DNA of 55,119 nt. Origin: a virus. The stretch covers positions 1-55,119 of IMG/VR virus record IMGVR_UViG_3300013120_000254; one strand, 5' to 3'. Below the pieces are notes generated by a model, which saw only the letters and a list, made by a program, of their open reading frames with translations, made no database searches and had not been told where the DNA came from. Below, one piece after another: positions 1,656-48,916 of the stretch. A program made the position numbers and the translations under genes. Within the stretch, counting starts at the first letter, position 1, and every line of letters starts with the position of its first letter.

Positions 1656-1898
1656 ATGCCGGGCGCCAGGAAGTCCACCGTGAAGGCGCGGGCCGACCAG
1701 GCCCGGACGCATCTAGCTGAGGCTGGCGAGCGCGGCCTGTCGGTCGAGCAGCTCGCGCGGATCCTGGGCTGCAGCCAGAAACAGGCCAGGGCGGCCCTAG
1801 ACGCGCTATGGCGGGACTTCCGCTGCTGGCGAAGGTTCTGCTGGAAGCGCGGCTGCTACGTCTTCCTGGAGCCCGAGAACCCCAAGGAACAAGGATGA
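1656..1898 (+). CDS. Small winged-helix-like DNA-binding protein
   Basis: The product has 80 residues. Residues about 12-55 (ADQARTHLAEAGERGLSVEQ, then LARILGCSQKQARAALDALW) match a winged helix-turn-helix pattern: a helix, a short turn with a Gly, and a recognition helix. A basic, Cys- and Trp-containing tail follows (three Cys in FCWKRGCY and nearby). It opens the glycan operon, and its stop overlaps the ATG of the first glycosyltransferase (ATGA). The ATG lies seven bases after a -10 box, so I chose it as a leaderless start; no Shine-Dalgarno sequence is present. It may regulate its own operon. The exact family is not recognised. Confidence 0.65.
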   Translation: MPGARKSTVKARADQARTHLAEAGERGLSVEQLARILGCSQKQARAALDALWRDFRCWRRFCWKRGCYVFLEPENPKEQG

Positions 1899-2482
1899 AG
1901 ATCGTCAGCTTCTTTACCCCCGGAGAGCTCTACACGCAGCACGAGAGAGAGCTTCGAGCTACCGTCGATGAGTTCGCTCCGCTGGCCCTCTACCGGACGA
2001 GCCCCGTCATGGACCTGGGGAGCTGGGAGCAGAACTGCGCCCTCAAGCCAGGCATCATTCGGCGCGAGCTGGCGACGCTGCAAGACGGCGACCGCCTGCT
2101 CTACCTGGACGTGGACGCGCGCATCAGGGCGCCCATTGACGAGCTCGCCACACACCCGGGCCCCTTCGACGTCGGGCTCCACGTCACCAAGCGCCCTAGC
2201 GGGCAGCCGGTCACGCTTTCGGGGACCCTGCTCTTCGCCAACACGAGGGGCGCCGAGCAGCTCGTAGAGCACTGGCTACACCGCTGCGAGGAGCGCCCAG
2301 ATGTCTGGGACCAGATCCACCTGGCCGCCGCCATCGGGGACATGGCTGGGATCCGGGTCTGGGACTTCGGGCCGGAGTATGTTTACATCTTCGACACCTT
2401 CAAGAAGCGCTACCCGAAGGCGACGCCGATCATCGAGCACCTGCAGGCCTCGCGCAGTGGGAGAAAGGCCAAGGCCAGGTGA
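1895..2482 (+). CDS. DxD glycosyltransferase (nucleotide-diphospho-sugar transferase fold)
   Basis: The product has 195 residues. It has the sequence YLDVDARI with a DVD motif (residues 72-74), the metal and nucleotide-sugar binding DxD of GT-A enzymes, preceded by a hydrophobic strand. A downstream block (LLFANTRGAEQLVEHWL, then WDQIHLAAAI) resembles the acceptor half of the nucleotide-diphospho-sugar transferase family (PF03407-like). It probably transfers a sugar from a nucleotide-sugar donor in the cytoplasm. It overlaps the winged-helix gene (ATGA) and the radical SAM gene (GTGA), so all three should be translated together. Donor and acceptor are unknown. Confidence 0.8.
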   Translation: MKIVSFFTPGELYTQHERELRATVDEFAPLALYRTSPVMDLGSWEQNCALKPGIIRRELATLQDGDRLLYLDVDARIRAPIDELATHPGPFDVGLHVTKRPSGQPVTLSGTLLFANTRGAEQLVEHWLHRCEERPDVWDQIHLAAAIGDMAGIRVWDFGPEYVYIFDTFKKRYPKATPIIEHLQASRSGRKAKAR

Positions 2483-3597
2483 CGAAGCACAGGGAGTACG
2501 CCTGTAACAAGCTGGCGGCCTACCCGGACCTCGTTCGCGAGCTCCAGGTGAGGCGCGCGCCGAAGAACCGGCTCATCAGCGTCCACCTGATGCCGCAGAA
2601 CCGATGCAACCAGCACTGCGAGTTCTGCAGCTACCGGATGCCCAACAACCGCAACGCCGACGTCTTCGATCCGGGCGAGAGCCTCTCCTGGGGGGCCATG
2701 AAGGAGCTCCTGGCGGACTTCCGTGCGCTGGGCGTTCGGGGCGTGGAGGTCACGGGCGGCGGCGAGCCCCTCGCCTATCCTCACACCGACAAGCTCTGGC
2801 GGGAGTTCGCGAAGCACGGCTTTGCCACGGCGCTCGTCACCAACGGGACACCGTTGCGCGACCGAGCGCCCATCATCTGCTCCACCAACCTGAAGTGGGC
2901 CCGCGTTTCCATCGACTGCTCCAAGCTAGAGACCTACGTGCGGATGCGCATGGCTCCAGAGGGGCACTTCAAGCTGGCCTGGGACGCTGTGGCGCAGCTG
3001 CGCGAGCACGCGCCCAAGGACCCCGAGTTCCGCCTCGGCGTCGGGTTCGTGCTCTGCAACGAGAACATGGGCGAGGTCTACGACTTCGTTGCGCGGGCCA
3101 AGGACTCCGGCGCGGACAACGTGCGGCTCTCCGTCACCTACCCCGGCGATGGCGACTACCACTTCCAGGACTTCGATGCCCTTGGCGGGGAGATCCGCGA
3201 CGCTGAGCGCGCCGAGGAGGACTTCGCTGATGAGAACTTCGCCGTCCACAACCTGATGGCCCAGCGCTGGCGGGAGGTGGTGAGCGACACGCAACTCTAC
3301 CGGCGCTGCGTCACCCAGGAGATCCTCTGCGTCGTGGAGGGCTCTGGCCACGTCTACACCTGCTGCACGTTCACGGGCTCCAAGAAGGGCGATCAGGGCG
3401 TCTTCTGGCAGCACCCGGAGGGCTTCCTCGGCCTCTGGCGCGACAAGGCGCTGTGGCGGTCGATCTTGAACCCGATGAAGTACTGCCAGAACGCCTGCCT
3501 CTACGAGTCGCGCAACCGAGAGATGCTGGCGATGCTGGCGAAGGATGCTGGGCCGTTGCCGTGTAGCAAGGGCATGATCCACACGGAGTTCATCTGA
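2479..3597 (+). CDS. Radical SAM protein with SPASM-like C-terminus
   Basis: The product has 372 residues. The CX3CX2C motif (RCNQHCEFC, Cys43, Cys47, Cys50) ligates the [4Fe-4S] cluster that cleaves SAM, and GGGEP (residues 93-97) is the SAM-contacting motif. The C-terminal 100 residues hold further cysteines (around RRCVTQEILC, YTCCTF, YCQNAC and PCSKG), consistent with a SPASM-type auxiliary cluster. Radical SAM/SPASM enzymes modify peptides, sugars or other small substrates; the substrate here is not evident. A GTG start at 2479 overlaps the upstream stop. It sits between a glycosyltransferase and a methyltransferase, so a role in a modified sugar or a modified virion peptide is an inference. 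Confidence 0.9.
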   Translation: MTKHREYACNKLAAYPDLVRELQVRRAPKNRLISVHLMPQNRCNQHCEFCSYRMPNNRNADVFDPGESLSWGAMKELLADFRALGVRGVEVTGGGEPLAYPHTDKLWREFAKHGFATALVTNGTPLRDRAPIICSTNLKWARVSIDCSKLETYVRMRMAPEGHFKLAWDAVAQLREHAPKDPEFRLGVGFVLCNENMGEVYDFVARAKDSGADNVRLSVTYPGDGDYHFQDFDALGGEIRDAERAEEDFADENFAVHNLMAQRWREVVSDTQLYRRCVTQEILCVVEGSGHVYTCCTFTGSKKGDQGVFWQHPEGFLGLWRDKALWRSILNPMKYCQNACLYESRNREMLAMLAKDAGPLPCSKGMIHTEFI

Positions 3598-4103
3598 TGG
3601 CGACGTGGGTCTGGGACGCAGCGTGGGAGGTCGTCGGGGAGGACGATGTCGTCCTAGACCTCGGCTGCGGCATTCTGCAGTGGTCCGATGGAACCCCGCT
3701 CACGGCCCGCTACCTGGCAGTAGACGCCTTCCCTGCGTACCTAGACCACATCTCGGCGGATGTTTGCACGGCCCGTATGCGCCTCCCGCGCTGCGCTGCC
3801 CTTTTCGCGGACGGCTCCTATGACGTGGTTTTGCTGATCGACATCATCGAGCACCTGGAGAAGAAAGACGGCGACGTGCTACTTGCGCACGCCGAGCGGA
3901 TTGCGCGGAGGGCCGTCTTTGTGGTCACGCCGGACGGGTTCTCTGAGCAGGACGGGTGGGACGCTTGGGGCCTGGGCCACAACGAGCTTCAGGCGCACGT
4001 TTGCGGGTGGTCAGAGCGGGAGCTGGCGAATAGGGGCTACAACCTGACGTGCCGCGTGAAACAGAGCGGCGGCCCGGTGATGGCGCTGGTCAAGGAGTTC
4101 TGA
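3597..4103 (+). CDS. SAM-dependent methyltransferase (class I)
   Basis: The product has 168 residues. Motif I is VVLDLGCG (residues 18-25), an acidic residue follows strand 2 (VDAFPAYLD), and the post-II region reads YDVVLLIDIIEHLEKKDGD, typical of Methyltransf_11/23-type enzymes, which are usually small-molecule or sugar methyltransferases. FVVTPDGFSEQDG and HVCGWSERELANRGY match the C-terminal strands of the same class. It overlaps its neighbours by one base on both sides (TGATG). In this operon the likely acceptor is a sugar or lipid-linked intermediate, not DNA, since DNA methyltransferase motifs such as DPPY are absent. That assignment is inferred. Confidence 0.85.
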   Translation: MATWVWDAAWEVVGEDDVVLDLGCGILQWSDGTPLTARYLAVDAFPAYLDHISADVCTARMRLPRCAALFADGSYDVVLLIDIIEHLEKKDGDVLLAHAERIARRAVFVVTPDGFSEQDGWDAWGLGHNELQAHVCGWSERELANRGYNLTCRVKQSGGPVMALVKEF

Positions 4104-4789
4104 TGGCGAAGATTGCTGCGATCATGCCGACCTTCAACCAGGTTCGGTACATCACGCAGGCGATCGACTCGGTCCTTCCCTTGGTGGACCGCTTGATCAT
4201 CGTGGACGACGGATCCAACGACGGCACGCGGGAGTACCTAGAGGGCATCCAATGCGGCGAGTGGGATCTGGTCTGCATGGACAAGAACGGCGGCACCGCC
4301 GAGGCCATCAATGCCGGCTACTCCATTCTGGAGGAGGAGGAGTGGGTCACCTGGGTGAGCTCCGACAACGTCACCCAGCACACCTGGCGCGAGTGGATAG
4401 AGGAGTGGCTCCACGTTGAGGACATTGGCGTTGTCTACACCGGCTTCATTCGCTGCAACCCGCAGCTCAAGCCGATGCAGTCCATCTTCCATCCGCACGA
4501 GCCCGAGAAGCTGATCAGCACGGAGAACTGCTACTATGGCCCATCCTTCGTGATCGCGCGGCGCGTGTGGGATGCCGTTGGCGGCCACCGGGGGCGCATC
4601 TCGCACGACTACGATCACTGGCTGCGCGTCGAGGAGGAGTGCTGGCGGCAGGGGCTGAGGATCAAGGACGTCAACGAGCCGGGTGTGCTCTACCGCGTCC
4701 ACAAGGAGCGCGTGACCGTGACGCGGCGAGCCGAGTACGATGCTCCCCGGTGGCAACAAGAGGCCCTCCAGCGAAGGAGACAGGCGTGA
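4103..4789 (+). CDS. GT2-family glycosyltransferase
   Basis: The product has 228 residues with a classical GT-A layout: IMPTFNQVRYITQAIDSV at the N-terminus, VDDGSNDGT (residues 34-42) for nucleotide binding, NGGTAEAINAG for donor contacts, SSDN (86-89) in the DxD position, a catalytic-base-like HDYDHWLRVEEE and a C-terminal YRVHKERVT. This matches family 2 inverting transferases. It lacks membrane helices, so it should act in the cytoplasm. It is coupled by overlap to the methyltransferase upstream (TGATG) and by GTGA to the next gene. Confidence 0.9.
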   Translation: MAKIAAIMPTFNQVRYITQAIDSVLPLVDRLIIVDDGSNDGTREYLEGIQCGEWDLVCMDKNGGTAEAINAGYSILEEEEWVTWVSSDNVTQHTWREWIEEWLHVEDIGVVYTGFIRCNPQLKPMQSIFHPHEPEKLISTENCYYGPSFVIARRVWDAVGGHRGRISHDYDHWLRVEEECWRQGLRIKDVNEPGVLYRVHKERVTVTRRAEYDAPRWQQEALQRRRQA

Positions 4790-5700
4790 GCCAAGACGTT
4801 GTAATCCTGTGCGCCCAAGAGAGGCTCCCGGATAGACATCCGTGCCGGCGCGGGTATCGGCGACAATACCTGGACCCGATCAATGAGATCGCAGCGTCTG
4901 TGCCGTCGCCGAGGGCGATCGAGCTCGCGCAGAAGGACCTCCCTGGGGTGGTGGTCGGCTACCGCTTCGGCGACAGGGAGGTGCGGGCGCAGGTGTGCTA
5001 CTCCGACTACCCGGACGAGCCGCTTCTTGGGGCGCCCCATGTGGACCTCGTGCTCAAAATGAAGTACTCGCGGCTCCACACCGACCTCTATGAGGGGCAT
5101 TCCGTCCCCGTGTTCCCAGGCGGCTTTCTGGGCGGCCCTCAGCGCGGCGAGGCGCTGGCTGAGGGGCGGCGGTGGTATCAGAAGAACCTGCAGGGCCTGC
5201 GCGAGATCGGCGACGGCATCGCCGCGAGCAGTCCCAGGCCGTACCAGAAGCAGCTCGTAGTCAATGGATGCCTAGATGGCGGCAAGGCTCGGGGCGGGTT
5301 TGGCGTGCTCGGGCCGCTGGAGTCAGGCGAGCTCGGGCGCATTCCCTTCCGGGATCACATGCAGAACGTCGCAGGGGCGGAGTTCTGCCTGAACATCTGC
5401 GGCAACGGCAACCTGATCGACCGCAAGGTGGTGGACTACTGCGGGATCGGGGCCGCCATCGTCAGCACCCGCGGGCTTCTGGATTGGGAGGGGCCGCATG
5501 GCGAGCGCTTCCGCGACACGCGGAACGTATGGATCCTCAACTCGCACGAGGATCTCGGGGACCTTCTTCAGGGCGGCATGGACCCGGTGATCCGGGATAG
5601 GCTCGTCCAGGGTTCTCGGCGGATGTATGACCGTTGCTTCGCGCCCGAGGCTCTCGCTGCCTGGTGGCAACGGTGCGCACGGGAGGTGGCATGTGCGTGA
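4786..5700 (+). CDS. Glycosyltransferase-like protein (possibly GT-B/exostosin-type)
   Basis: The product has 304 residues. The C-terminal third, GAEFCLNICGNGNLIDRKVV followed by DYCGIGAAIVSTRGLLDW, resembles the donor-binding end of GT-B or exostosin-like transferases, where a glycine-rich turn and a G-x-x-IVST strand precede the final helices. The N-terminus has no recognised motif. I chose the GTG at 4786 because it overlaps the upstream stop and follows the AAGGAGA ribosome-binding site. A longer upstream reading in the same frame runs through the GT2 gene and is unlikely. Family assignment is tentative; the operon context supports sugar transfer. Confidence 0.6.
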   Translation: MSQDVVILCAQERLPDRHPCRRGYRRQYLDPINEIAASVPSPRAIELAQKDLPGVVVGYRFGDREVRAQVCYSDYPDEPLLGAPHVDLVLKMKYSRLHTDLYEGHSVPVFPGGFLGGPQRGEALAEGRRWYQKNLQGLREIGDGIAASSPRPYQKQLVVNGCLDGGKARGGFGVLGPLESGELGRIPFRDHMQNVAGAEFCLNICGNGNLIDRKVVDYCGIGAAIVSTRGLLDWEGPHGERFRDTRNVWILNSHEDLGDLLQGGMDPVIRDRLVQGSRRMYDRCFAPEALAAWWQRCAREVACA

Positions 5701-6352
5701 GGACCCCGTCTTGATCATCGGCGCGCCGCGCAGCGGCACGTCGGTCACAGCTGCAATCCTGCAGCGCTGCGGGCTCTGGCTGGGCGAGACCGGCCGGGGC
5801 AACCGGGACAACCCTAAGGGCTTCTTCGAGAACAAGAGGATCCGGCAGAAGAACAAGGCGGTCCTGCACGCGGGGGGCTACGACGCCGCGGGGGTCCAGC
5901 CGTTGCCACCATGGAACTGGATCGGGAACACAGCCCACCTGCGCGAGACCGTGCTGATCGAGCTCGGCTTCCAGGGGGTCAAGCCGGATCAGCCTTGGGG
6001 CTTCAAGGACCCGAAGCTCTTGCTTACGTGGGCGACATGGTTGTCCGCCTGGCCCAAGGCGCGTATCGTTCTGGTAAGGAGAGATCGCGAGAGCGTGGTG
6101 CGCTCCTGCGCCCGAGCTTCCTTCTACAGCGGCTGGGCGCGCCGCGGGATGGAGTGGAACGCCTGGGTGGCTGACCAGGAGCGTAGGATCGAGCTGATCA
6201 AGAGGACGAGCCCCTACGTGGCCGAGCTCTGGCCTGGTCGCCTGGCCCTCGCGGACGGCTGGCACGCCTTCAGGGACGCCGTAGAGGCCCTCGGGCTAGA
6301 ATGGAAGCTGGGCGCCCAGGACACCTTCGACGCTGAGATTTGGAACAGGTGA
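5693..6352 (+). CDS. PAPS-dependent sulfotransferase
   Basis: The product has 219 residues. APRSGTS (residues 11-17) is the 5'-phosphosulfate-binding loop, and VLVRRDRESVVRS (126-138) matches the 3'-phosphate-binding strand-helix of the sulfotransferase family. The NRDNPKGFFEN and GFKDPKLLLTW segments are also typical of bacterial and phage sulfotransferases. It would move sulfate from PAPS to a hydroxyl, here most likely on a sugar made by the neighbouring transferases (inference). The GTG at 5693 follows GGAGG at good spacing and overlaps the upstream gene by eight bases. A longer start at 5627 would overlap more and has no such signal. Confidence 0.88.
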   Translation: MREDPVLIIGAPRSGTSVTAAILQRCGLWLGETGRGNRDNPKGFFENKRIRQKNKAVLHAGGYDAAGVQPLPPWNWIGNTAHLRETVLIELGFQGVKPDQPWGFKDPKLLLTWATWLSAWPKARIVLVRRDRESVVRSCARASFYSGWARRGMEWNAWVADQERRIELIKRTSPYVAELWPGRLALADGWHAFRDAVEALGLEWKLGAQDTFDAEIWNR

Positions 6353-6891
6353 CGCACATCTGCCTGCCGGGCCCGAGCTTCGAGTGGCCGAGCCCCAGGC
6401 CCGAGGACCGCGTGATCGGGGTCAACGTGGCGATCGCCAAGATGGAGCGCTGTGACGTCTTCGTGGCGCTGGGGCGGCCCACCGACCGGGTTCTGGCTAG
6501 CATCCTGGGCCATCTCTTCCTGATGAACCCCCTGATCGTGTCCATGGGCGAGGCCGCCGCCGCGTGGCGCAAGGCGGACTATAGCGTCAAGGACTGGCCC
6601 CAGATGACGCCTGGGTGGCTGGAGCGGGCATACTCAGGGCAGCACTTCAGCATGTTCACGGCGATCTCCTACGCCGCCAGCACGTCGGACGGCCCCATCA
6701 AGCTCTGGGGCTGCGACCTGGAGGGAGATCGCTACTGCACTGGCCAGAGCCCTCACGGGAGCCATTGGCTGGAGCGTAGACGCTGGCCCGCTGAGTTCCG
6801 TAACCTCAAGCGCATCCATGCAGCCGCTCTTGCGAACCAGGTGGATCTCCGAATCCACGGCCGTGTGGCACATCGCCTGCCCGGGGCCTAG
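6349..6891 (+). CDS. GPSL-motif protein, DUF115/GT42-like (first of a tandem pair)
   Basis: The product has 180 residues. The N-terminus THICLPGPSFEW carries the (G/C)xGPS motif, followed by VIGVNVAIAKMERCDVFVAL (a strand with a conserved Asn, then an Asp-containing strand). The late strand IKLWGCDLEGDRYC is of the YGCD type. This layout is seen in DUF115/MptE-like and sialyltransferase-like (GT42) folds, and related proteins are common in phage glycan clusters. It resembles the next gene across the same motifs, so the two look like paralogues. GTG at 6349 overlaps the upstream stop (GTGA); a TTG nine bases earlier is possible. Confidence 0.65.
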   Translation: MTHICLPGPSFEWPSPRPEDRVIGVNVAIAKMERCDVFVALGRPTDRVLASILGHLFLMNPLIVSMGEAAAAWRKADYSVKDWPQMTPGWLERAYSGQHFSMFTAISYAASTSDGPIKLWGCDLEGDRYCTGQSPHGSHWLERRRWPAEFRNLKRIHAAALANQVDLRIHGRVAHRLPGA

Positions 6892-7465
6892 CCTCGACTT
6901 CGAGCGCATTCCCGACGATGGGAACCCCCTGATCTGCGTCAATGCGGCCCTCAAGGCTGCGCCGCGCTGCGACTTCTGGGTCTGCTGGGACTCCCCCAAC
7001 AAGATCCACGAGCAGGCCTTCCCGCGGGCGCGCGAGCTCCAGCCTATTCTCGTTTGCGGAACGTATGGCGCGCGAGACAACTGGGTGACGGTCATGCGGG
7101 AGTCGTGTCTTTGGCCCTGGGCTACCTGGCTCGACATGGTCGTCAACCCCAAGCCCTGGGGGCCTCCCTGGTATATGGAGGCGACCAAGGGGCCCGCATT
7201 CTCGACATTCAGCGCGATGGGCTGGGCCCTCAAGCGCGGCGCCACGGACCTTCGGCTCTACGGCGCCGACATGAGCGGGATGGGCTACTACGATGACCGG
7301 GTCACCAGGCTCAAGGCGGCCCAGAAGCCCAATGCGCGCTGGGGGAAGCGCTGGAAGGCTGAGTCCCAGATGTACGAGGGGGCCCGCAGAGAGGGCCTCA
7401 GGCGCAAGGTCAGGATCGTTCGGTCTCTGCCTGACGGTCGTTGGGACGAGTTATCCGATCGGTAG
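6863..7465 (+). CDS. GPSL-motif protein, DUF115/GT42-like (second of the pair)
   Basis: The product has 200 residues from GTG. WHIACPGPSLDF, LICVNAALKAAPRCDFWVCW and LRLYGADMSGMGYY align motif by motif with the preceding protein. I prefer the GTG at 6863 because it puts the N-terminus level with that paralogue. An ATG at 6818 would add 15 residues and overlap the upstream gene by 74 bases; neither start has a good ribosome-binding site. The basic C-terminus extends about 40 residues past the paralogue. It is probably a nucleotide-sugar-dependent transferase or a related enzyme and is the last gene of the glycan operon. Its 3' end overlaps a leftward gene. Confidence 0.65.
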   Translation: MWHIACPGPSLDFERIPDDGNPLICVNAALKAAPRCDFWVCWDSPNKIHEQAFPRARELQPILVCGTYGARDNWVTVMRESCLWPWATWLDMVVNPKPWGPPWYMEATKGPAFSTFSAMGWALKRGATDLRLYGADMSGMGYYDDRVTRLKAAQKPNARWGKRWKAESQMYEGARREGLRRKVRIVRSLPDGRWDELSDR

Positions 7466-7622
7466 AGACCCGCTGGGCGCATTCGCGGATGTAGGTCGCT
7501 AGGGGCATCGACTTCGGCTTGGCAGCCGCCCAGAAGGCGATCTCCGATCGCCGCACGCGGATAGAGAGAACCTCACGGGGGTCGGGCCTCTTCCACCGCG
7601 ACGTAATACGGAACTTGGCCAT
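7410..7622 (-). CDS. Small ribbon-helix-helix-like protein
   Basis: The product has 70 residues. The sequence REVLSIRVRRSEIAFWAAAK followed by PLATYIRECAQRV fits the ribbon-helix-helix pattern: a short strand with alternating basic and hydrophobic residues, a first helix, a turn and a second helix ending in YIREC. A GGAGGG ribbon-site sequence precedes the ATG by about five bases on the leftward strand. It ends inside the 3' end of the last glycan gene (convergent) and starts 27 bases from the portal gene (divergent), so it could regulate either. It is too small for anything but a DNA-binding or accessory role. Confidence 0.65.
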   Translation of the reverse strand: MAKFRITSRWKRPDPREVLSIRVRRSEIAFWAAAKPKSMPLATYIRECAQRVSTDRITRPNDRQAETERS

Positions 7623-7649
7623 CTAGCCCTCCGGGGTTACCCGTCGTGC

Positions 7650-10037
7650 GTGCGTGCTGCTGATAGTAACGGGCGTCCAAGCGAACAGCAACGGAGCTTC
7701 GAGCAGCCTACCGTAGAAGAGGGCTCTGCGGGCTGGCTGGGCCAGATGCTGGATCAAGGGGCCCACTACGCGGGCCTTGAGCGGGTTTCTAGCCCCTTCA
7801 CGGAGGGCGGGTGGGTTCATGCGGCCCTGAAGGCCATCGGCGCGGCGGTGCGCCAGTGCCCCATGGGCTTCTACCGGGAAGACCCCCGGGAGGACTCCAA
7901 GGCCACGAAGGTCGACGACAACCACCCGCTCCATCAGCTCTTCCGGCGCCCGAACCCCTACATGACGGGGGCCAAGTTCTGGGAGGCCGGCGTCTACCAC
8001 CGCAAGCTGGACGGGGAAGACATCTGGTTCATGTATGACCGGAGTAAGCACCCGGTCAGGCTGACGGGGGGCAACGGCGGGCCCTACATCGACTACCCTG
8101 CCCTGATCACGCCAGCCCGCGGCTCGCATGTGGAGCTGAAGAGGGACAAGTACGGCTTCCCGGCCTGGTGGATCCTGCGGCCAACCGGGAAGAGCGGCGG
8201 CATCCGCATGAAGCCGCACCAGGCTCTGCAGTTCTCGGACTACGACCCCGACGTCCCGCTGCGTGGGCTGGGGGACGTTCAGGTCTTGATGCGGGATCTG
8301 GGCTTGGAGATGGGAGCCTACCGCTACCTGGCGGCGATGCTCCTGCACTCCGGCGACCCGGGTGGGGTGATCACCACCGAGAACGAGATGTCCGCGGACG
8401 AGGAGGAGCGGGCGGCCAACGAGGCCAGCGAGCGCTTCTCCCTCCCCAACGCCGGTCGCTGGCAGGTGGTCTCGGGCAAGGACATCAGGTACACGCCCAA
8501 CAAGTTCGGCCCGAAGGACATGCAGTTCCAGGAGATGCTGGGGTGGGTGCTGAACCGCACCTCGGCGATCTTGGGCGTGCCGAAGGAAGTCCTTGGGATG
8601 CTGGAGGAGGCCAGCTACTCCAATTTCCAGACCGCGGTCCGGCAGTTTTGGCTGGGTGGGAACGGCGTTCTCGCCTACATGGCCTCGGTCGAGGACGTGA
8701 TCAACACGCTCTTCCTGCCGCACCTGAAGGACAAGGAGGCGCGGACTCTGGTGGCGCGCTTTGATCTGTCCGCGGTAGAGGCGCTGCGAGACGACCGCAT
8801 CGACAAGCTGGAGGCGGCGCTCAAGCTCGCGCAGGGCAACGCTGGGCTCTCCTTCGACGACGCGGCCCTCATGGTTGGCTTGGATCCTGACCACACGCGG
8901 AGCGAGTACGGGTCGATCGCCTGGATGCCGCCCAACATCACCACCGCAGAGGCCGCCAAGGAGAAAGCCGACAACCCGCCCGATCCCGGCCTTGGCCAGG
9001 ACAACCCGCCCAACCCAGACAACGACTCCGGCGGCGATCCCCCGTTCCCGGGCTCCGCGGAAGGCGAAACGGAGGGCGAGGACCAAGCACGGGCGGCCCC
9101 GTCCACCAGGAACAGGGGTGACGCCGCGAACGCCACCCCTCCGGGGTCGCCTCCTCTCACCGCCGCGCAGCTCGCGCGACGGGAGTACTTCGCGGGCTAC
9201 GAGGAGCGAATCCTCTTGATAGGCGAGAAGGCCGTCAAACGGGCGGCCATGAGCTTCCTGCGGAAGTACGAGCTCGCGCAGGCCAAGCGCATCAAGGACT
9301 TCGCCGAGGGGCGGATGCCGGAGGCGGCAGCTGAGCCCAGCGTGAAGGTGGGCGAGGGCAGCCCGATCAGCACCATCGACATCGCGGCGGATCCTAACAC
9401 GCTGAACATCCTGCTGCTGTCGTACGTGGAGTGGGCGGAGAAGCTCGCCAAGGAGATGAAGGTGCCCCTCGCCGACGTCTTCGAGGCCGCCGCGGACGAC
9501 ATCGTGGCCGAGATCGGCGGCACCATCATCCCGCCGACCGACCCATGGGCGCTGGAGTACCTGAAGTCGCAACGCTTCCGTCTCGCCGAGGGCGTCAACT
9601 CGACGCTCGCGAAAGAGGTCAAGGCCGCCTTCATCGAGGTGTTCAAGGACGCGCCTTTCGACATCGCCACGCTGCAGGAGCACATCCGCAAGAAGCTCCC
9701 CGAGCTCCAGGGCGCCCTGCGCAAGGCCTTCCGCAACCGGGAGGCTCGCGCGTCGGCAATCGCCCGCACAGAAACAGGCCGAGCCTCCAACGGGGCGCGG
9801 TTTGAGCAAATGGACCGCGAAGGCGTCGAGCAACACCAGTGGGTGACGTCGGGGGATGCCTTCGTTCGCAAGAGCCCACCGAAAACGCACGATCATGTCG
9901 TGCTCGACGGCAGCGTGGTGAACCTGGGCGACTCGTTCAGGGACGCCTCCACTCTGCGTCACCCACACGACCCGGAAGGTCAGGCTGGCGACGTCATCAA
10001 CTGTCGCTGCGTGACGGCTCCAGTGGTGAAGGACTAG
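7650..10037 (+). CDS. Portal protein fused to a MuF-type minor head domain
   Basis: The product has 795 residues. Residues about 40-410 show HK97-type portal features (SPFTEGGWVHAALKAIGAAV, HPLHQLFRRPNPYMTGAKFW, a GVPKEVLGM turn and the NFQTAVRQFW helix). A Pro/Gly/Asp-rich linker follows (about 430-500). The C-terminal 100 residues match the SPP1 gp7/Mu gpF domain (ARTETGRASNGARFEQM, then HQWVTSGD and GDVINCRCVTAP). The portal forms the dodecameric DNA gate; the MuF part is normally a separate protein. The GTG at 7650 is the earliest start and the true start may lie up to about 30 codons downstream. The protease gene begins two bases after the stop. Confidence 0.9.
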   Translation: MRAADSNGRPSEQQRSFEQPTVEEGSAGWLGQMLDQGAHYAGLERVSSPFTEGGWVHAALKAIGAAVRQCPMGFYREDPREDSKATKVDDNHPLHQLFRRPNPYMTGAKFWEAGVYHRKLDGEDIWFMYDRSKHPVRLTGGNGGPYIDYPALITPARGSHVELKRDKYGFPAWWILRPTGKSGGIRMKPHQALQFSDYDPDVPLRGLGDVQVLMRDLGLEMGAYRYLAAMLLHSGDPGGVITTENEMSADEEERAANEASERFSLPNAGRWQVVSGKDIRYTPNKFGPKDMQFQEMLGWVLNRTSAILGVPKEVLGMLEEASYSNFQTAVRQFWLGGNGVLAYMASVEDVINTLFLPHLKDKEARTLVARFDLSAVEALRDDRIDKLEAALKLAQGNAGLSFDDAALMVGLDPDHTRSEYGSIAWMPPNITTAEAAKEKADNPPDPGLGQDNPPNPDNDSGGDPPFPGSAEGETEGEDQARAAPSTRNRGDAANATPPGSPPLTAAQLARREYFAGYEERILLIGEKAVKRAAMSFLRKYELAQAKRIKDFAEGRMPEAAAEPSVKVGEGSPISTIDIAADPNTLNILLLSYVEWAEKLAKEMKVPLADVFEAAADDIVAEIGGTIIPPTDPWALEYLKSQRFRLAEGVNSTLAKEVKAAFIEVFKDAPFDIATLQEHIRKKLPELQGALRKAFRNREARASAIARTETGRASNGARFEQMDREGVEQHQWVTSGDAFVRKSPPKTHDHVVLDGSVVNLGDSFRDASTLRHPHDPEGQAGDVINCRCVTAPVVKD

Positions 10038-10039
10038 AC

Positions 10040-11149
10040 ATGAACCTCCAGGAACGCGCGCAACGCATTCACTCCGGCCTCGCGGGCCCCGCCGACTTCG
10101 AGGGCCTCAGCCAGGACGACATCATTGCCATCAAGGGCGACCAGTCCGAGATGCACTTCCGATTCATCCCGTCCATTGCGGTCGTAGAGCGCGCGGCTGG
10201 GGAGGAAGAGGCTCGCCCGCAGTTCCGGCACGTCGCCTCGGATGAGTCGGTCGATGGAATGGGCGACATCATCTTGGTCGCCGGCTGGCAACTCGACCGC
10301 TTCCAGAAGAACCCGCAGCTTCTGTGGGCGCATGATCAGCGAGGCCTACCCATCGGCCAGGTGGATCGCGTCTGGAAGGGCAGAGCTGACGGCACCAAGG
10401 CGCTCCTAACCGAGAGCCATCTCCACCCGGGCGATCTCAATCCGCAAGCGGTCTTGATCGAGCGCATGATCGAGGCTGGGGCTCTGCGCGGCGTTAGCGT
10501 GGCCTTCCTCCCGAAGGCCATGCACTACCCCAAGGACGAGGAAGAGCGCAAGGAGATCGGTCTGGGCGAGTGGGGCGCGCTCATCAAGGAGCAGGAGCTG
10601 ATGGAGCTCTCCGTTGTGCCGATCCCCGCGAACGCCAACTCGCTGCAGCGCAAGTCTCTTGATGAGCGTGCCCAGCGCGTCTTCGAGAGCGCCAGGGATC
10701 AGGAGGTCGATCCTGAGCTGATCGAGCACGTCCGCGTGGCCCTCACGATGAGCGACGAGGAGCAGCAGGCCATCCGACGTCGGTACATCGTAGTGCCCGA
10801 TGTCAAGGAGGCCGTGGCTCGGCTGGTGGACGCGGTGGAGGAGCCGGAGCTGGCCGCACACGGGTCGATCCCCGTCGGCGCGGACTTGGCCGCTGACGTC
10901 TTGGGTAACCAGGAGCATCTGGTTCTCCCCCTCACGTCGACCCTGGACCCCGTGGCATCCAAGACCATCGACGCCCTGGAGCGCGCCAGCAAGGCGCTGA
11001 ACCGGGCGGCAGACAGAATCGAACGCCTCACCGAAGGCGCGGAGGTGGCGGCAGGGGGCGACGAGCCCACCGATGCCCCGACGACTCCCGACGGTGGTGA
11101 GGACTTCATGGCCGACGTCCTGGACGGATTGGCCGACGCACTCCAGTAA
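10040..11149 (+). CDS. HK97-type prohead protease (S78) with long C-terminal extension
   Basis: The product has 369 residues. The protease core (about 1-200) contains LLWAHDQRGLPIG with the predicted catalytic His98, GALRGVSVAF with Ser153, and ELMELSVVPIPANANS, which is typical of the family. The remaining 170 residues are acidic and helical (ASKALNRAADRIERLTEGAE) and may act as a scaffold or delta domain; scaffold fused to protease is known in this family. No separate scaffold gene is visible. I chose the ATG at 10040 because it falls directly after the portal stop; the longer frame upstream overlaps the portal gene. Confidence 0.9.
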   Translation: MNLQERAQRIHSGLAGPADFEGLSQDDIIAIKGDQSEMHFRFIPSIAVVERAAGEEEARPQFRHVASDESVDGMGDIILVAGWQLDRFQKNPQLLWAHDQRGLPIGQVDRVWKGRADGTKALLTESHLHPGDLNPQAVLIERMIEAGALRGVSVAFLPKAMHYPKDEEERKEIGLGEWGALIKEQELMELSVVPIPANANSLQRKSLDERAQRVFESARDQEVDPELIEHVRVALTMSDEEQQAIRRRYIVVPDVKEAVARLVDAVEEPELAAHGSIPVGADLAADVLGNQEHLVLPLTSTLDPVASKTIDALERASKALNRAADRIERLTEGAEVAAGGDEPTDAPTTPDGGEDFMADVLDGLADALQ

Positions 11150-11169: not shown

Positions 11170-12450
11170 ATGGAAACAGACCCCACCGTCGCGGGAGAGC
11201 CGGACGGCCAGGAAAAGGCCAAGGCGATCCTGGAGCTCACAAACAAGCTCCAAGACATCATCAACACGCGCTTCGACGAGCGCGACAACGACACGGCCGA
11301 GAAGCTCGCGAGGCAGATCCGCGAGTCCCTCCCGGACGCCATCAAGGCCCTCGCCGAAGAGAATCCGGACTTCCGAGTCCCCGGCCTCGGGGAAGAGAAG
11401 GACAAGGAGTTCTCCTTCGCCAAGGCGGCCTACGCCATCGCCAACAAGAACTGGGCCAACGCTGGTTACGAGAAGGAGTGCTTTGACGAGATGGATGCGC
11501 GGTTCGGCAACCACGTCGCCCGCGCCAAGGCACTCAACACCGGCCACGTTGCCACCCCGGACGCCCACGAGGGCCAGTACCTGGTCCCCGAGCAGCACCT
11601 GAACGAGATCATCGACCTGCTCTACGCGGACTCGGTGGTCTTCCAGTCGGGCGCCCGCTCGATGCCTGGCCAGTTCGGAGAGATCACCATCCCGGTGCTG
11701 CTCTCCAGCGCGTCGGCCGCCTGGTACTACGAGGGCGTCTCCATCACGGAGAGCGAACCCTCGTTCGGGGAGCACACCATGCGCCCGCGCCAGCTGATGG
11801 CGATGGTCCGCGTGGGCAACATGCTGCTCACCAACTCGCGACCGACTGCTGAGCAGATCATCCGCGACAACCTGGCCGAGCAATTCCGTATCGCTCTCGA
11901 CACGGCCGTCCTGGAGGGCAGTGGCGTTGGCGCAGAGCCGACCGGCCTCGTCAATGCGACGCCGCCCTTCACCGAAGAGGGGACCACGGCGTCGGTCACC
12001 ATGACCGCTGGCTGGACCTACGCCAAGGCCATGGAGTTCATCACCGACCTCGCCAACGAGAACGCCCTGCGCGGCTCTCTTGGCTGGGTGATGAACCCGA
12101 CCGAGTGGAGCCGCGCGATTCAGATGTCGTCCGGCACCTCCGGGGTGGACGTCAACCGCATCGTCGTCCAGGACGGCGCCGCGACCTCGCTGCTCGGCTA
12201 CCCGCTGCGCACCACCACGATCCTGGCCCACAGCGGCGCCTCGTCTGGGGCCATGGACGACACGGTCATCTTCGGCGACTGGCGACAGGTTCGCGTCCCC
12301 TTCTGGAAGACTCTGGAAATGCGCGCCAGCGACGTCGCCGGCACCGCGTTCGCCCAGAACCAGACCCTGGTCCGCGGAATTCTCTACGCCGACGTCTCCT
12401 TCGATCACCTGCAGTCGTTCTCCATCGGCAGCACGCAGTACGTGATCTGA
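11170..12450 (+). CDS. Major capsid protein, HK97 fold
   Basis: The product has 426 residues. A coiled-coil N-terminal delta-like region (about 1-110, KAILELTNKLQDIINTRF) is followed by the HK97 capsid body: EGQYLVPEQHLNEIIDLL, a central SAAWYYEGVSITESEPSFGE, and VDVSFDHLQSF-like strands (DVSFDHLQSF) at the end. Cleavage by the upstream protease probably removes the N-terminal region, as in HK97 relatives (inference). The leader is TCACTAATCCC with no Shine-Dalgarno sequence, unusual for such a highly expressed gene. A GC-rich stem-loop follows the stop. Confidence 0.93.
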   Translation: METDPTVAGEPDGQEKAKAILELTNKLQDIINTRFDERDNDTAEKLARQIRESLPDAIKALAEENPDFRVPGLGEEKDKEFSFAKAAYAIANKNWANAGYEKECFDEMDARFGNHVARAKALNTGHVATPDAHEGQYLVPEQHLNEIIDLLYADSVVFQSGARSMPGQFGEITIPVLLSSASAAWYYEGVSITESEPSFGEHTMRPRQLMAMVRVGNMLLTNSRPTAEQIIRDNLAEQFRIALDTAVLEGSGVGAEPTGLVNATPPFTEEGTTASVTMTAGWTYAKAMEFITDLANENALRGSLGWVMNPTEWSRAIQMSSGTSGVDVNRIVVQDGAATSLLGYPLRTTTILAHSGASSGAMDDTVIFGDWRQVRVPFWKTLEMRASDVAGTAFAQNQTLVRGILYADVSFDHLQSFSIGSTQYVI

Positions 12451-41727: not shown

Positions 41728-44565
41728 GTGGCGGGCGAGATTGCGATCTACCGCCAGTCCGCTGGCGGCCAGAACTTCACCTCCACGAGCCTGACGGACT
41801 TCCCGTTCGACACTCAGGTCCGGGAGGATGACGGGTACAGTCGCAGCGACAACGTCACCGTCGAGCTCGCAGAGGCTGGGCACTACCTGGTCATCTACAA
41901 CTGTGCCTTCCAAATGGATGGGGGCACTTATCGTTCAGAGACCACGGGGGAGGTGGTGCTCGACAGCACCTCCCTCGACCCCTACGGGATCAGCTCTGGC
42001 TACATCCGCCGCACCTCCGGCTACACGGAGGCGGTACAGTTCGCGGCGACGATCATCGACGCGGACGCCGAGGACGGGCTCAAGGTCCAGGTCAAGCGTA
42101 CGGACTCCAACACGGCCGTGGCGTGCGATGTCACAGCGGACCTCTCCGGGCTGCAGACTCTCAAGCTGAAGGACGACTGGGCCTACTTCCGAGCCAAGAC
42201 GACCACATCTCAAAACGTAGCCGTATCCGGGGGGGCGCCGTCTGTGTGGCCGTGGGCGGTCTCGGACTGCGGCACATGGACATCCATCAACTGGATCACG
42301 GAAGACGAGAAGGACACTGGGTTTACACACACAGCGTCCAGCTCCACGATCACGCTGGACGACGCCGGGCACTACCTGATCTGCGCCTCGGTCGAGTGCC
42401 AGAATACGCACGCCAGCACCCGCCACAACCACGTCTCGCGCGTGGTGGTCAACGGCGTGACCTACCAGTACGCCACCGGATACCAACGGGGCTCAAACGG
42501 CTGCCAGAACGCCGTTAGCACCCACTTCCTGATCGTGGAATCCACTGGCGCGAGCCAGGTCTTGACGATCGACGTGGCTCAGGAGGGACAGAGCACGGCC
42601 GACCACCTGGACATGGTGGCGGCCGGCGTCACGGTGGTGAAGCTGCCCGACACGGGAGACTACGTCCGGGTCTGGGAGGATGCGGATCACGACCACAACT
42701 CCGCCACGTTCGATGCTGTTGACTTCACGAGGGAGTCTGAGAAGGACACGGGCTCTTTCACTCACTCCACGTCCACAAACCCCAGTCGGGTGGAGGTCGA
42801 GGTCGATGATGACTACCTCTTCTGTGCGGGGTTCCTTCAGGGCAAGACGGGGGACAACGGGACGAGGAAGCAGCCCGAGACGCGCTGGCGGGTCAACGGG
42901 ACTGATGAGCTCCAGTACGGGGGCGCCTCGGCTTACACGCGGGGCGCCCAGTCGAGCACGGACACCTACTCGGGCGGCGCATCCTGCGGCTTCCTCCAGG
43001 CCCTAGAGGCCAACGACTACATCGAGCTGGGAGGCGTTGATCGGGGGACGACAAGCGACGGGGCCACCCGCTGGATCGCCAACATCACCATGATGCAGGG
43101 CGTCCGGATCGGCTCGATCATCCAGGTGATCAGGCCGGACCCGGCGGCTGTGGGGTTCCGCTGCACGGGCCAGACGGTCGCCCCGACGCTGGACCTGGCG
43201 ATCGGGAGCGCGACGTGGCAGCCGATCGCTATGCAGACGGCGGTCAGCCCGTCGCTGCTGATCACGCCCGACCCGGCAGTGGCGACAGCTGAGGCCCCAG
43301 CGGTTGATGTCAGCTTCTCCCTGGCCCTGACGCCGGACCCGGCGATCGCAGCACTGGGAGCCCCAGACGTAGCGGTCGGGCTTGCGCTGACCCTGGCGCC
43401 CACACCTGCGACGGCGACGGTCGAGGCGCCGGATGTCTCGGTGGTGGTCGGGGCCACCCTCTTGACCCCAGACCCAGCGGTCACGGCGACAAGCGCGCCC
43501 GACGTGGGGGTAGAGCTCGGGACGCTGACCCTAGCTCCTATCCCCCTGCCGCTTGAGGTCAGCGCCCCGAGTGTCTCGATTGCACCCTCGCTGACAACAA
43601 CGCCAGATCCGGCGATCGCTGTCATCGAAAACCCGGCGATCGGGGTCTCTTTCGGAACGCTTACAGTTACCCCCGATCCTGGGACCCTGGTGCTGGGGGC
43701 CCCAGACGTCTCCGTTGACGCTGGCCAGCTGATCACCCCCGAATCAGCCACCCTGACGCTCTCAGCGCCCGCTGTGGCGATCGACCTGGGCGGCGTGGTG
43801 CTCACGCCCGGCGCGGCGAGCGTCGCTCTCAGCGCCCCTGAGGCCGCCGTGGGTCTCAGCTTGGTCCTGACTCCAGACCCGGCGCTCTGGAGCCTGGCGC
43901 TGCCCGACGTTGATGTCGTCCCGCTCGAACTGCAGCTCTCGCCGGACCCGGCCCTGGCTGGGTTCTCGGCAGTCGGCCCGGTCCTCCAGCGGCTGATCCC
44001 TGTCGGAGCCGCTGAGACGTCGCTGGCGACACCCGCCATCCAGGTCGCGCTGGAGCTGATCGTCGCTCCAGGGGCCGCTCAGGCCGCCGTAGGGGCCCCT
44101 GCGCTCTCGGTTGTCCCGGGCGAGCTCCTGGTGAGCCCTGACCCGGCTCTGATCACGCTCGTTCTCCCCACCGCCACCGTCAACATCCCCCAGCTGGTGA
44201 CCCTCCGCTACTACGCGGACGCGGTCCTGGCCCGTTCCCGGAATCGGGACGCGATCATGGTGGTGACTCGGGCCGAGGACGCCGAGCTCGTCCGGGAGAT
44301 CCTGGGAGACGCCGTCCTGGACACGACCCGGCACGCCCCAGCCTGGCTGGAACGGACCCGCATGGAGGACGGCATCCTGCTGAGAACCTACCTGGGAGAT
44401 GCCGTCCTGGACCTGACAAGAGCCACGGACGCCTCCATCGAGCGCGCCCGCCTGGACAGCGCCCTGCTCTTCCGGGAGCGCCTCAGCGACTTGGAGCTCG
44501 GCGTCTCGCGCAACGAGGATGCGGCTCTGACTAGAACTCGCACGCAAGATGCGCCTATCCTCTAG
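41728..44565 (+). CDS. Repeat-rich fibre protein with C1q-like heads, 22-residue repeats and 10-residue repeats
   Basis: The product has 945 residues. Three related beta domains (about 5-150, 151-310 and 312-462), each with a GHYLxxY/C-type core and matching flanks, resemble C1q/TNF heads. Residues 512-824 are about 14 tandem repeats of 22-23 residues with consensus LTPDPAxxxLxAPDVxVxLxL. Residues 831-945 are an exact 10-residue repeat (DAVLARSRNR type). The protein is likely a virion fibre; the start is GTG at 41728. It is physically separate from the main tail genes. No enzymatic motif is visible. Confidence 0.7.
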   Translation: MAGEIAIYRQSAGGQNFTSTSLTDFPFDTQVREDDGYSRSDNVTVELAEAGHYLVIYNCAFQMDGGTYRSETTGEVVLDSTSLDPYGISSGYIRRTSGYTEAVQFAATIIDADAEDGLKVQVKRTDSNTAVACDVTADLSGLQTLKLKDDWAYFRAKTTTSQNVAVSGGAPSVWPWAVSDCGTWTSINWITEDEKDTGFTHTASSSTITLDDAGHYLICASVECQNTHASTRHNHVSRVVVNGVTYQYATGYQRGSNGCQNAVSTHFLIVESTGASQVLTIDVAQEGQSTADHLDMVAAGVTVVKLPDTGDYVRVWEDADHDHNSATFDAVDFTRESEKDTGSFTHSTSTNPSRVEVEVDDDYLFCAGFLQGKTGDNGTRKQPETRWRVNGTDELQYGGASAYTRGAQSSTDTYSGGASCGFLQALEANDYIELGGVDRGTTSDGATRWIANITMMQGVRIGSIIQVIRPDPAAVGFRCTGQTVAPTLDLAIGSATWQPIAMQTAVSPSLLITPDPAVATAEAPAVDVSFSLALTPDPAIAALGAPDVAVGLALTLAPTPATATVEAPDVSVVVGATLLTPDPAVTATSAPDVGVELGTLTLAPIPLPLEVSAPSVSIAPSLTTTPDPAIAVIENPAIGVSFGTLTVTPDPGTLVLGAPDVSVDAGQLITPESATLTLSAPAVAIDLGGVVLTPGAASVALSAPEAAVGLSLVLTPDPALWSLALPDVDVVPLELQLSPDPALAGFSAVGPVLQRLIPVGAAETSLATPAIQVALELIVAPGAAQAAVGAPALSVVPGELLVSPDPALITLVLPTATVNIPQLVTLRYYADAVLARSRNRDAIMVVTRAEDAELVREILGDAVLDTTRHAPAWLERTRMEDGILLRTYLGDAVLDLTRATDASIERARLDSALLFRERLSDLELGVSRNEDAALTRTRTQDAPIL
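43261..44199 (+). repeat. 22-23-residue tandem protein repeats (TPDPA/APDV type)
   Basis: About 14 units, each with a turn (TPDPA, SPDPA or APGAA) and an alternating hydrophobic strand (APDVSV or APAVAI). The alternation suggests a stacked beta solenoid or a row of small beta hairpins. DNA copies are diverged, so the repeats are old or constrained at the protein level only. Confidence 0.7.
44218..44562 (+). repeat. Exact-period 10-residue protein repeats (DAxLxxxRxx)
   Basis: Eleven full decapeptides and a half unit, in phase and without insertions (DAVLARSRNR, DAIMVVTRAE, DAELVREILG, DAVLDTTRHA and so on), reach the C-terminus. Asp-Ala at positions 1-2 and a hydrophobic residue at position 4 are nearly invariant. 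The two-pentapeptide period resembles pentapeptide-repeat coils. Confidence 0.8.
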
Positions 44566-48331: not shown

Positions 48332-48916
48332 ATGATCCGCGCCCGCTCCGAACTCCTCCAGCCCGACGTGGACGCCCTGCTGGCCACCTGCGGCCGGGGC
48401 AAGGCCGCCGCTCGGGACCGCGCCTTGATCCTCTTCCTGCGCATGACGGGCTGCCGGGTCTCCGAGGCCCTGGACCTGACAACCCGCGGCATCGACCGCG
48501 CCGCCCGCAAGGTCGTACTCCCCGGCACCAAGACCCGGGCCTCCAGCCGCGCCGTGCCGCTCCCTGAGCCCTTGCTCAAGGCGCTGGACACCTGGCTCGC
48601 GGAACGCGAGAAGCACGCCCCCGGGGCCGCTCAGGTCTTCTGCGCCGTGCGCAGGGGGAACGAAGGCGCTAGGCTGGACCGGAAGAAGGTCGATCGGATG
48701 CTGAAGCGTCGAGCCGCTGCCGCTGGCCTCGCCAAGCGCGTCCACGCCCACGCCTTCCGGCACGGGCTCGCTGCGGATCTGGTGCGGGCAGGAGCCCCCT
48801 CCGCAGCCATCATGTCGCAGCTCGGCCACGCTGACCTGCGCGTCACCACCCGCTACATCGGGCAGCTTGCCGCAGACGAGGCCGCTGCCACTGCGATCGA
48901 GGAGCTGTTTGGATGA
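48332..48916 (+). CDS. Minimal tyrosine recombinase (integrase catalytic domain only)
   Basis: The product has 194 residues. The catalytic set is complete: Arg42 (GCRVSEAL), Lys67 (GTKTRASS), His140 and Arg143 (HAFRH), His166 (LGHADLR) and nucleophile Tyr175 (TRYIG). The protein lacks the N-terminal core-binding domain present in most integrases of 300 or more residues, so it corresponds to the catalytic half. It may still integrate the phage, resolve dimers or invert a segment. It starts with ATG 33 bases after a promoter and runs into the next gene with ATGA. Confidence 0.88.
   Translation: MIRARSELLQPDVDALLATCGRGKAAARDRALILFLRMTGCRVSEALDLTTRGIDRAARKVVLPGTKTRASSRAVPLPEPLLKALDTWLAEREKHAPGAAQVFCAVRRGNEGARLDRKKVDRMLKRRAAAAGLAKRVHAHAFRHGLAADLVRAGAPSAAIMSQLGHADLRVTTRYIGQLAADEAAATAIEELFG

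Follow-up and report, generated by a model that had tools for sequence, protein, structure and literature searches.

A nine-gene cassette of glycosyltransferase, radical SAM, methyltransferase and sulfotransferase genes beside the head genes of a tailed phage: a candidate virion glycosylation pathway

The IMG/VR virus record IMGVR_UViG_3300013120_000254 (55,119 bases, analysed at its full length and called the window below) comes from a tailed phage that infects bacteria. It carries a cassette of nine co-directional open reading frames (ORFs) at 1656-7465, immediately 5' of the portal, protease, and capsid genes (Table 1). The nine ORFs are chained, with neighbour overlaps of 4, 4, 1, 1, 4, 8, 13, and 74 nt, and all were open at the place and on the strand given in an earlier prediction made from the sequence (the original prediction). 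The leaderless promoter of that prediction could not be established: no sigma-70-like site was found there, although gene 1 has no Shine-Dalgarno (SD)-like motif upstream. No plus-strand terminator was predicted between the cassette and the portal gene. The GC content of the cassette is like that of the remainder of the phage.

Table 1. Genes of the cassette and of the adjoining head region in the window.
Feature	Position	Strand	Basis of assignment
Gene 1, 80-aa putative helix-turn-helix protein	1656-1898	+	Helix-turn-helix matches below cut-off (best Pfam 4e-4); no SD motif upstream
gt1, GT-A-fold glycosyltransferase	1895-2482	+	Invariant DxD (D72, D74) in a 30-sequence alignment; AlphaFold model
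Radical SAM/SPASM-type enzyme	2479-3597	+	Pfam Radical_SAM 1.1e-16, above gathering score; CxxxCxxC and auxiliary-cluster cysteines
Class I SAM-dependent methyltransferase	3597-4103	+	Methyltransf_11 4.3e-5, above gathering score
GT2 glycosyltransferase	4103-4789	+	PF00535 (Glycos_transf_2) 2.9e-15, above Pfam gathering score; L011 homologue 1e-41
orf6, GT-B-like transferase	4786-5700	+	31% identity to L011:10782-11708
PAPS-type sulfotransferase	5693-6352	+	PF13469 (Sulfotransfer_3) 3.1e-9; start most likely GTG 5693
gpsl1, GT42/MptE-like family, short form	6340-6891	+	Family alignment; family profile to CstII 8.5e-10
gpsl2, GT42/MptE-like family	6818-7465	+	Family alignment, profile to CstII/CstI; start possibly GTG 6863
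Portal/MuF head morphogenesis fusion	7650-10037	+	phrog_2662 5.3e-64; directly 3' of the cassette
Prohead protease	10034-11149	+	Matches to head maturation protease PHROGs
Putative major capsid protein	11170-12450	+	Position and sequence, no family test

The original prediction had named insertion of a host-type island by misassembly as one finding that would undo it. Two other contigs with almost the same DNA rule out misassembly and host contamination. In the independent metagenome contig IMGVR_UViG_3300009320_000182, the cassette is complete and 99.97% identical, with 3 mismatches over 11.6 kb, and it is therefore not an assembly artefact. In contig 3300013117_000210, the 3' end of the cassette is joined to the portal and capsid genes. 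Among viral contigs, close relatives of the radical SAM enzyme, gpsl2, and the capsid protein were found in the same phage only.

The gene identities proposed earlier were confirmed, that of gene 1 only by weak helix-turn-helix matches. Pfam gave radical SAM, methyltransferase, GT2, and Sulfotransfer_3 above cut-off, and gt1 has a predicted GT-A fold. gt1, orf6, and both GPSL proteins had no Pfam match by themselves and were assigned through relatives, which are designated below by L numbers. The protein starting at 4786 (orf6), earlier called transferase-like, appears to be GT-B-like, as its L011 homologue matches Glyco_trans_1_2 (PF13524) at 2.9e-6. A scan for further orf6 relatives added L011 only, and a search of phage records with orf6 gave no match. 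Homologues of the methyltransferase gene adjoin radical SAM genes in L011, L035, L039, and L054.

The radical SAM enzyme has the invariant cysteines C43, C47, and C50 (CxxxCxxC) and, in its C-terminal part, C277, C295, C336, and C340, aligned with L006, L009, and L010. This is the pattern expected of a radical SAM enzyme with an auxiliary iron-sulfur domain, to which the protein is assigned by sequence. It fell into no named NCBIfam radical SAM subfamily (best score 62 bits against an equivalog cut-off of 380). A profile of the enzyme returned 260 candidate viral relatives. In 22 non-redundant viral loci, the neighbours that had a Pfam match were mainly GT2 genes (15 of 149 neighbours) and methyltransferases (13 for the commonest single model), followed by 8 further radical SAM genes and 4-5 transketolase parts. 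In L006, a 735-kb phage record, the radical SAM gene lies between two transketolase-like halves (7367-9585); transketolase parts also adjoin radical SAM genes in other viral loci and in a Solidesulfovibrio plasmid.

Viral and bacterial rows were interleaved in a tree of 66 radical SAM proteins. Twelve label changes were needed, at least 8 of them forced by supported branches, and a single viral origin was rejected on that count. The window enzyme groups with the bacterial L132 (46% identity) and the viral L011 and L012 (support 100/99). L132, the closest bacterial relative, is encoded on a chromosome among glycosyltransferase and methyltransferase genes, and a bacterial plasmid example adjoins pseB and pseC. 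The interleaving thus indicates that phages acquired the enzyme several times from bacterial glycan clusters or exchanged it with them.

The sulfotransferase scored 37.9 bits for PF13469, against a gathering cut-off of 27 bits. By inspection, it has a P-loop-like motif (IIGAPRSGTS) and a motif like a 3'-phosphate site (RRDRESVVRS), both conserved with L020 and partly with L142. A sequence search of the PDB gave no match. Homologues were found in L020, L142, L214, L215, and L217. In L020, an adenosine 5'-phosphosulfate (APS) kinase gene (APS_kinase, 3.5e-17) stands immediately before the sulfotransferase gene. APS kinase makes 3'-phosphoadenosine 5'-phosphosulfate (PAPS), the sulfotransferase donor, and the L020 kinase would therefore supply PAPS. 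In L008 (Pseudomonas phage Y4, an unverified record), a sulfotransferase-like ORF likewise adjoins an APS-kinase-like ORF.

The last two genes of the cassette, gpsl1 and gpsl2, are paralogues (E 4e-11). A profile of 18 GPSL members matched the GT42 enzyme CstII (2x63) at 8.5e-10 over positions 27-220 and CstI at 9.4e-6. It matched the Maf-type structure 5mu5 (0.005) and MptE weakly. The GT42 assignment is a family-level profile result, and the single window proteins match nothing. Relatives in L011 and L020 scored 21-25 bits for PF01973, below the gathering score of 34.6, and the window proteins gave no match. For gpsl2, a low-confidence model (pLDDT 68.5) had CstII, CstI, and MptE as its top matches. 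As for a counterpart of the catalytic histidine of CstII, many family members have histidines after the GxDM motif; by alignment, with no residue-level superposition, gpsl1 has SHW there and gpsl2 none. A search of phage records with gpsl2 gave no match. By profile comparison, the family is related to GT42 sialyltransferases and weakly to Maf/MptE, a relationship newly found in this analysis.

The AlphaFold model of gt1 (pLDDT 93.4) had as its best PDB match 2p6w, the capsid glycosyltransferase of Paramecium bursaria chlorella virus 1 (PBCV-1) (E 2.1e-9, TM 0.73), followed by GT8 and GT6 enzymes. The nearness of the modelled fold to a capsid-glycosylation enzyme is also new here. gt1 matched one huge phage among phage records. 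In about 10 other phage loci, one polypeptide holds a GPSL domain followed by a gt1 domain, which ties the two functionally. GPSL-like/gt1 fusions were seen in L111, L114, L116, L119, L121, L123, L125, L127, L130, and L007, the last with a further GT-B-like part. Owing to these fusions in other phages, an iterated GPSL hidden Markov model came to match gt1 as well; it was dropped, and a five-seed model was used instead.

Related cassettes were found among the structural genes of several unrelated phages, which is a new observation. The closest, in L011, lies downstream of the portal gene and has two GPSL genes, a GT2 gene, a radical SAM gene, three methyltransferase genes, a second GT2 gene, and an orf6 homologue. 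L012 has radical SAM, GT2, and methyltransferase-like genes between the genes for the terminase large subunit (TerL) and the portal protein. At L012 1460-3634, TerL is apparently split at the Walker A motif by an intein-like insertion, as read from the sequence.

In L020, L142, and L217, the order is GPSL, glycosyltransferase, radical SAM, methyltransferase, radical SAM-methyltransferase fusion, GT32, GT2, and sulfotransferase, with a cupin and the APS kinase just before the sulfotransferase in L020. L142, from a contig binned as Zixiibacteriota, is a phage or prophage, and L217 is the same phage in a virus contig. These cassettes are flanked by the major capsid gene on one side and the head-tail connector/tail tube genes on the other. 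In L214, the same slot again begins with GPSL and ends with the sulfotransferase; its interior differs, with a transketolase-like gene and no radical SAM gene of this family. In L020, L142/L217, and L214, the GPSL gene follows the major capsid gene, with at most a small gene between, and the sulfotransferase gene stands directly before the connector gene. The partial contig L215 has a sulfotransferase gene and then the connector gene. Within this one capsid lineage, the slot and its ends are kept and the interior varies, as expected if the glycan diversifies. L047 has GPSL, glycosyltransferase, methyltransferase, and radical SAM genes between the major capsid and tape measure genes, and no sulfotransferase gene was found in it. 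The window is of another phage type, in which the cassette precedes the portal gene. The original prediction held that neither a radical SAM enzyme nor a sulfotransferase is a normal part of phage transferase sets. This was too strong: the radical SAM family is common in viral contigs beside glycosyltransferase and methyltransferase genes, and sulfotransferases end similar cassettes in at least 3 other phages and one partial contig.

Several known systems resemble the cassette in part. In mycobacteriophages, phage-encoded glycosyltransferases place glycans on capsid and tail-tube subunits (Freeman 2023, cited in PMC12619734). Phage-encoded glycosyltransferases are predicted in the window too. 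To our knowledge, the mycobacteriophage sets described have no radical SAM enzyme, sulfotransferase, or GT42-like protein. PBCV-1 and other chloroviruses glycosylate their major capsid protein with their own glycosyltransferases (PMC7826918; PMC9614988). Virus-encoded capsid glycosyltransferases and the gt1 fold are the points of likeness, whereas PBCV-1 is a eukaryotic giant virus with N-linked glycans. We know of no radical SAM/sulfotransferase cassette of this kind in PBCV-1. Maf (DUF115/MptE-like) enzymes O-glycosylate serine and threonine of flagellin (PMC11339370). This is protein O-glycosylation inside the cell, as proposed for the window, and GPSL relatives weakly match PF01973 and 5mu5; however, the GPSL proteins are much shorter, and their profile scores place them nearer to GT42.

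Among the auxiliary metabolic genes reported from phages are sulfotransferases (PMC8290583; PMC10580990, the latter for Sulfotransfer_3), and their role in phage genomes was called unclear (PMC10580990). Those reported are single genes, whereas in the window and its relatives they belong to a recurrent glycan cassette, which in one case includes an APS kinase. Two huge-phage records without annotation, LR756501 and LR756500, hold comparable clusters. Between them, they have a radical SAM gene among glycosyltransferase, methyltransferase, and transketolase-half genes, and a GPSL-like region that is followed in the same polypeptide by a gt1 domain, together with a methyltransferase, a sulfotransferase-like gene, and a GT2. 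The clusters are larger than that of the window and differ in gene content, and the radical SAM enzyme is just 24% identical. As the original prediction had stated, no described system with this combination came to light: in openly licensed literature, no paper was found joining phage, sulfotransferase, radical SAM, and glycosyltransferase in such a system. By analogy, the cassette is most likely a variation on known virion glycosylation.

We favour, with a probability of roughly 0.6, a pathway in the cytosol by which a virion protein receives a glycan that is both methylated and sulfated. Observed directly were the gene set, the intact binding motifs, the position within the structural region, and the recurrence among structural genes of unrelated phages; from the genes we infer the virion target and the sulfation. 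The pathway would act in the cytosol late in infection, during virion production. The GT42/Maf-like GPSL protein would put a sugar on a surface serine or threonine of a head or tail protein, and gt1, the GT2 enzyme, and the GT-B protein would lengthen the glycan. The radical SAM enzyme would remodel the sugar or sugar nucleotide, the methyltransferase would add a methyl group, and the sulfotransferase would add sulfate from host PAPS (one related phage having its own APS kinase). The particles would thereby gain an anionic coat of rare sugars, with effects on adsorption, stability, or recognition. Both the genomic position and the lack of membrane export genes in the cassette speak for the virion as the target. 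Several points weigh against this reading. No acceptor protein was identified. gt1 is only 14-16% identical to the PBCV-1 enzyme, and its GT-A fold is a broad one, with glycogenin and GT6 among the other matches. The histidine-rich stretch of other GPSL proteins is missing from gpsl2, which may lack activity or serve as a scaffold. We place transcription late from gene position only. CstI and CstII act on lipooligosaccharide, which fits modification of the host surface too, and an integrase-like gene makes lysogenic conversion possible.

Of the two sites that the original prediction offered for a methylated, sulfated glycan, the virion is thus the better supported and the host surface less likely. 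In the latter case, the enzymes would alter lipopolysaccharide or capsule of the host during infection or lysogeny, as a means of superinfection exclusion or as a disguise. The integrase-like gene at 48332, the action of Campylobacter GT42 sialyltransferases on lipooligosaccharide, and the chromosomal glycan cluster around L132 (46%) all agree with this. However, neither the cassette nor three related ones contained a flippase, polymerase, undecaprenyl-phosphate sugar transferase, or other recognised export or lipid-linked initiation gene, or a clear transmembrane segment (maximum hydropathy 1.82, where a transmembrane control reached 2.49), and a host-surface polysaccharide is disfavoured for this reason. 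The cassettes also lie inside structural modules of unrelated phages, not beside lysogeny genes. We consider this explanation unlikely.

Decoration of phage DNA bases by the transferases, the radical SAM enzyme, and the sulfotransferase is less probable still. Radical SAM enzymes are part of some thymidine hypermodification pathways. For phages, DNA modification systems with glycosyltransferases and sulfotransferases have been proposed (Iyer 2013, as cited in PMC10829341). However, no thymidylate-synthase/hydroxymethylase family gene was found in the window, L002, L020, or L011 records, the genome being incomplete and the positive control detected, which disfavours pyrimidine hypermodification. 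There was no Tet_JBP match either, although the positive control for that search also gave none, and the cassette stands with structural, not replication, genes. Maturation of a small precursor peptide by the radical SAM/SPASM enzyme, as for a ribosomally synthesized and post-translationally modified peptide, was also raised by the original prediction and is very improbable. A weak similarity to SPASM maturase models speaks for it; against it, all NCBIfam maturase scores lie far under cut-off (best 62 of 380 bits), and the neighbours are sugar enzymes, with relatives in glycan clusters.

Beyond virion glycosylation in the window phage, it is possible, and we advance this tentatively and with more doubt than confidence, that unrelated tailed phages repeatedly built a capsid-linked cassette that combines GT42/Maf-like O-glycosylation of a virion protein, radical SAM chemistry, methylation, and sulfation to give sulfated particles. 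If so, sulfated virion glycans would be new chemistry for viral particles. The conserved capsid-adjacent slot, which in one member includes an enzyme for making PAPS, gives phage sulfotransferases a testable role. The cassettes would also be a source of small cytosolic glycosylation enzymes and would bear on how phages avoid or use surface recognition.

Elsewhere, the window encodes the portal/MuF fusion, the prohead protease, a tail terminator, a tape measure protein, DnaB, RecT/Bet, a single-stranded DNA-binding protein, TerL, and the integrase-like gene. Portal matches were too distant to use for host assignment. The window is an incomplete genome, as contig L002 extends 2.6 kb further upstream; a C5 cytosine DNA methyltransferase is encoded on L002 1-906 (minus strand), left of the window start. 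The integrase-like ORF (48332-48916) spans the catalytic part alone, and a temperate lifestyle is possible. A 945-aa protein at 41728-44565 has jelly-roll-like N-terminal repeats, many 'TPDPA...SAPDV' repeats, and a weak BclA_C match. Its sequence suggests a fibre or surface protein, and it is a possible glycan acceptor.

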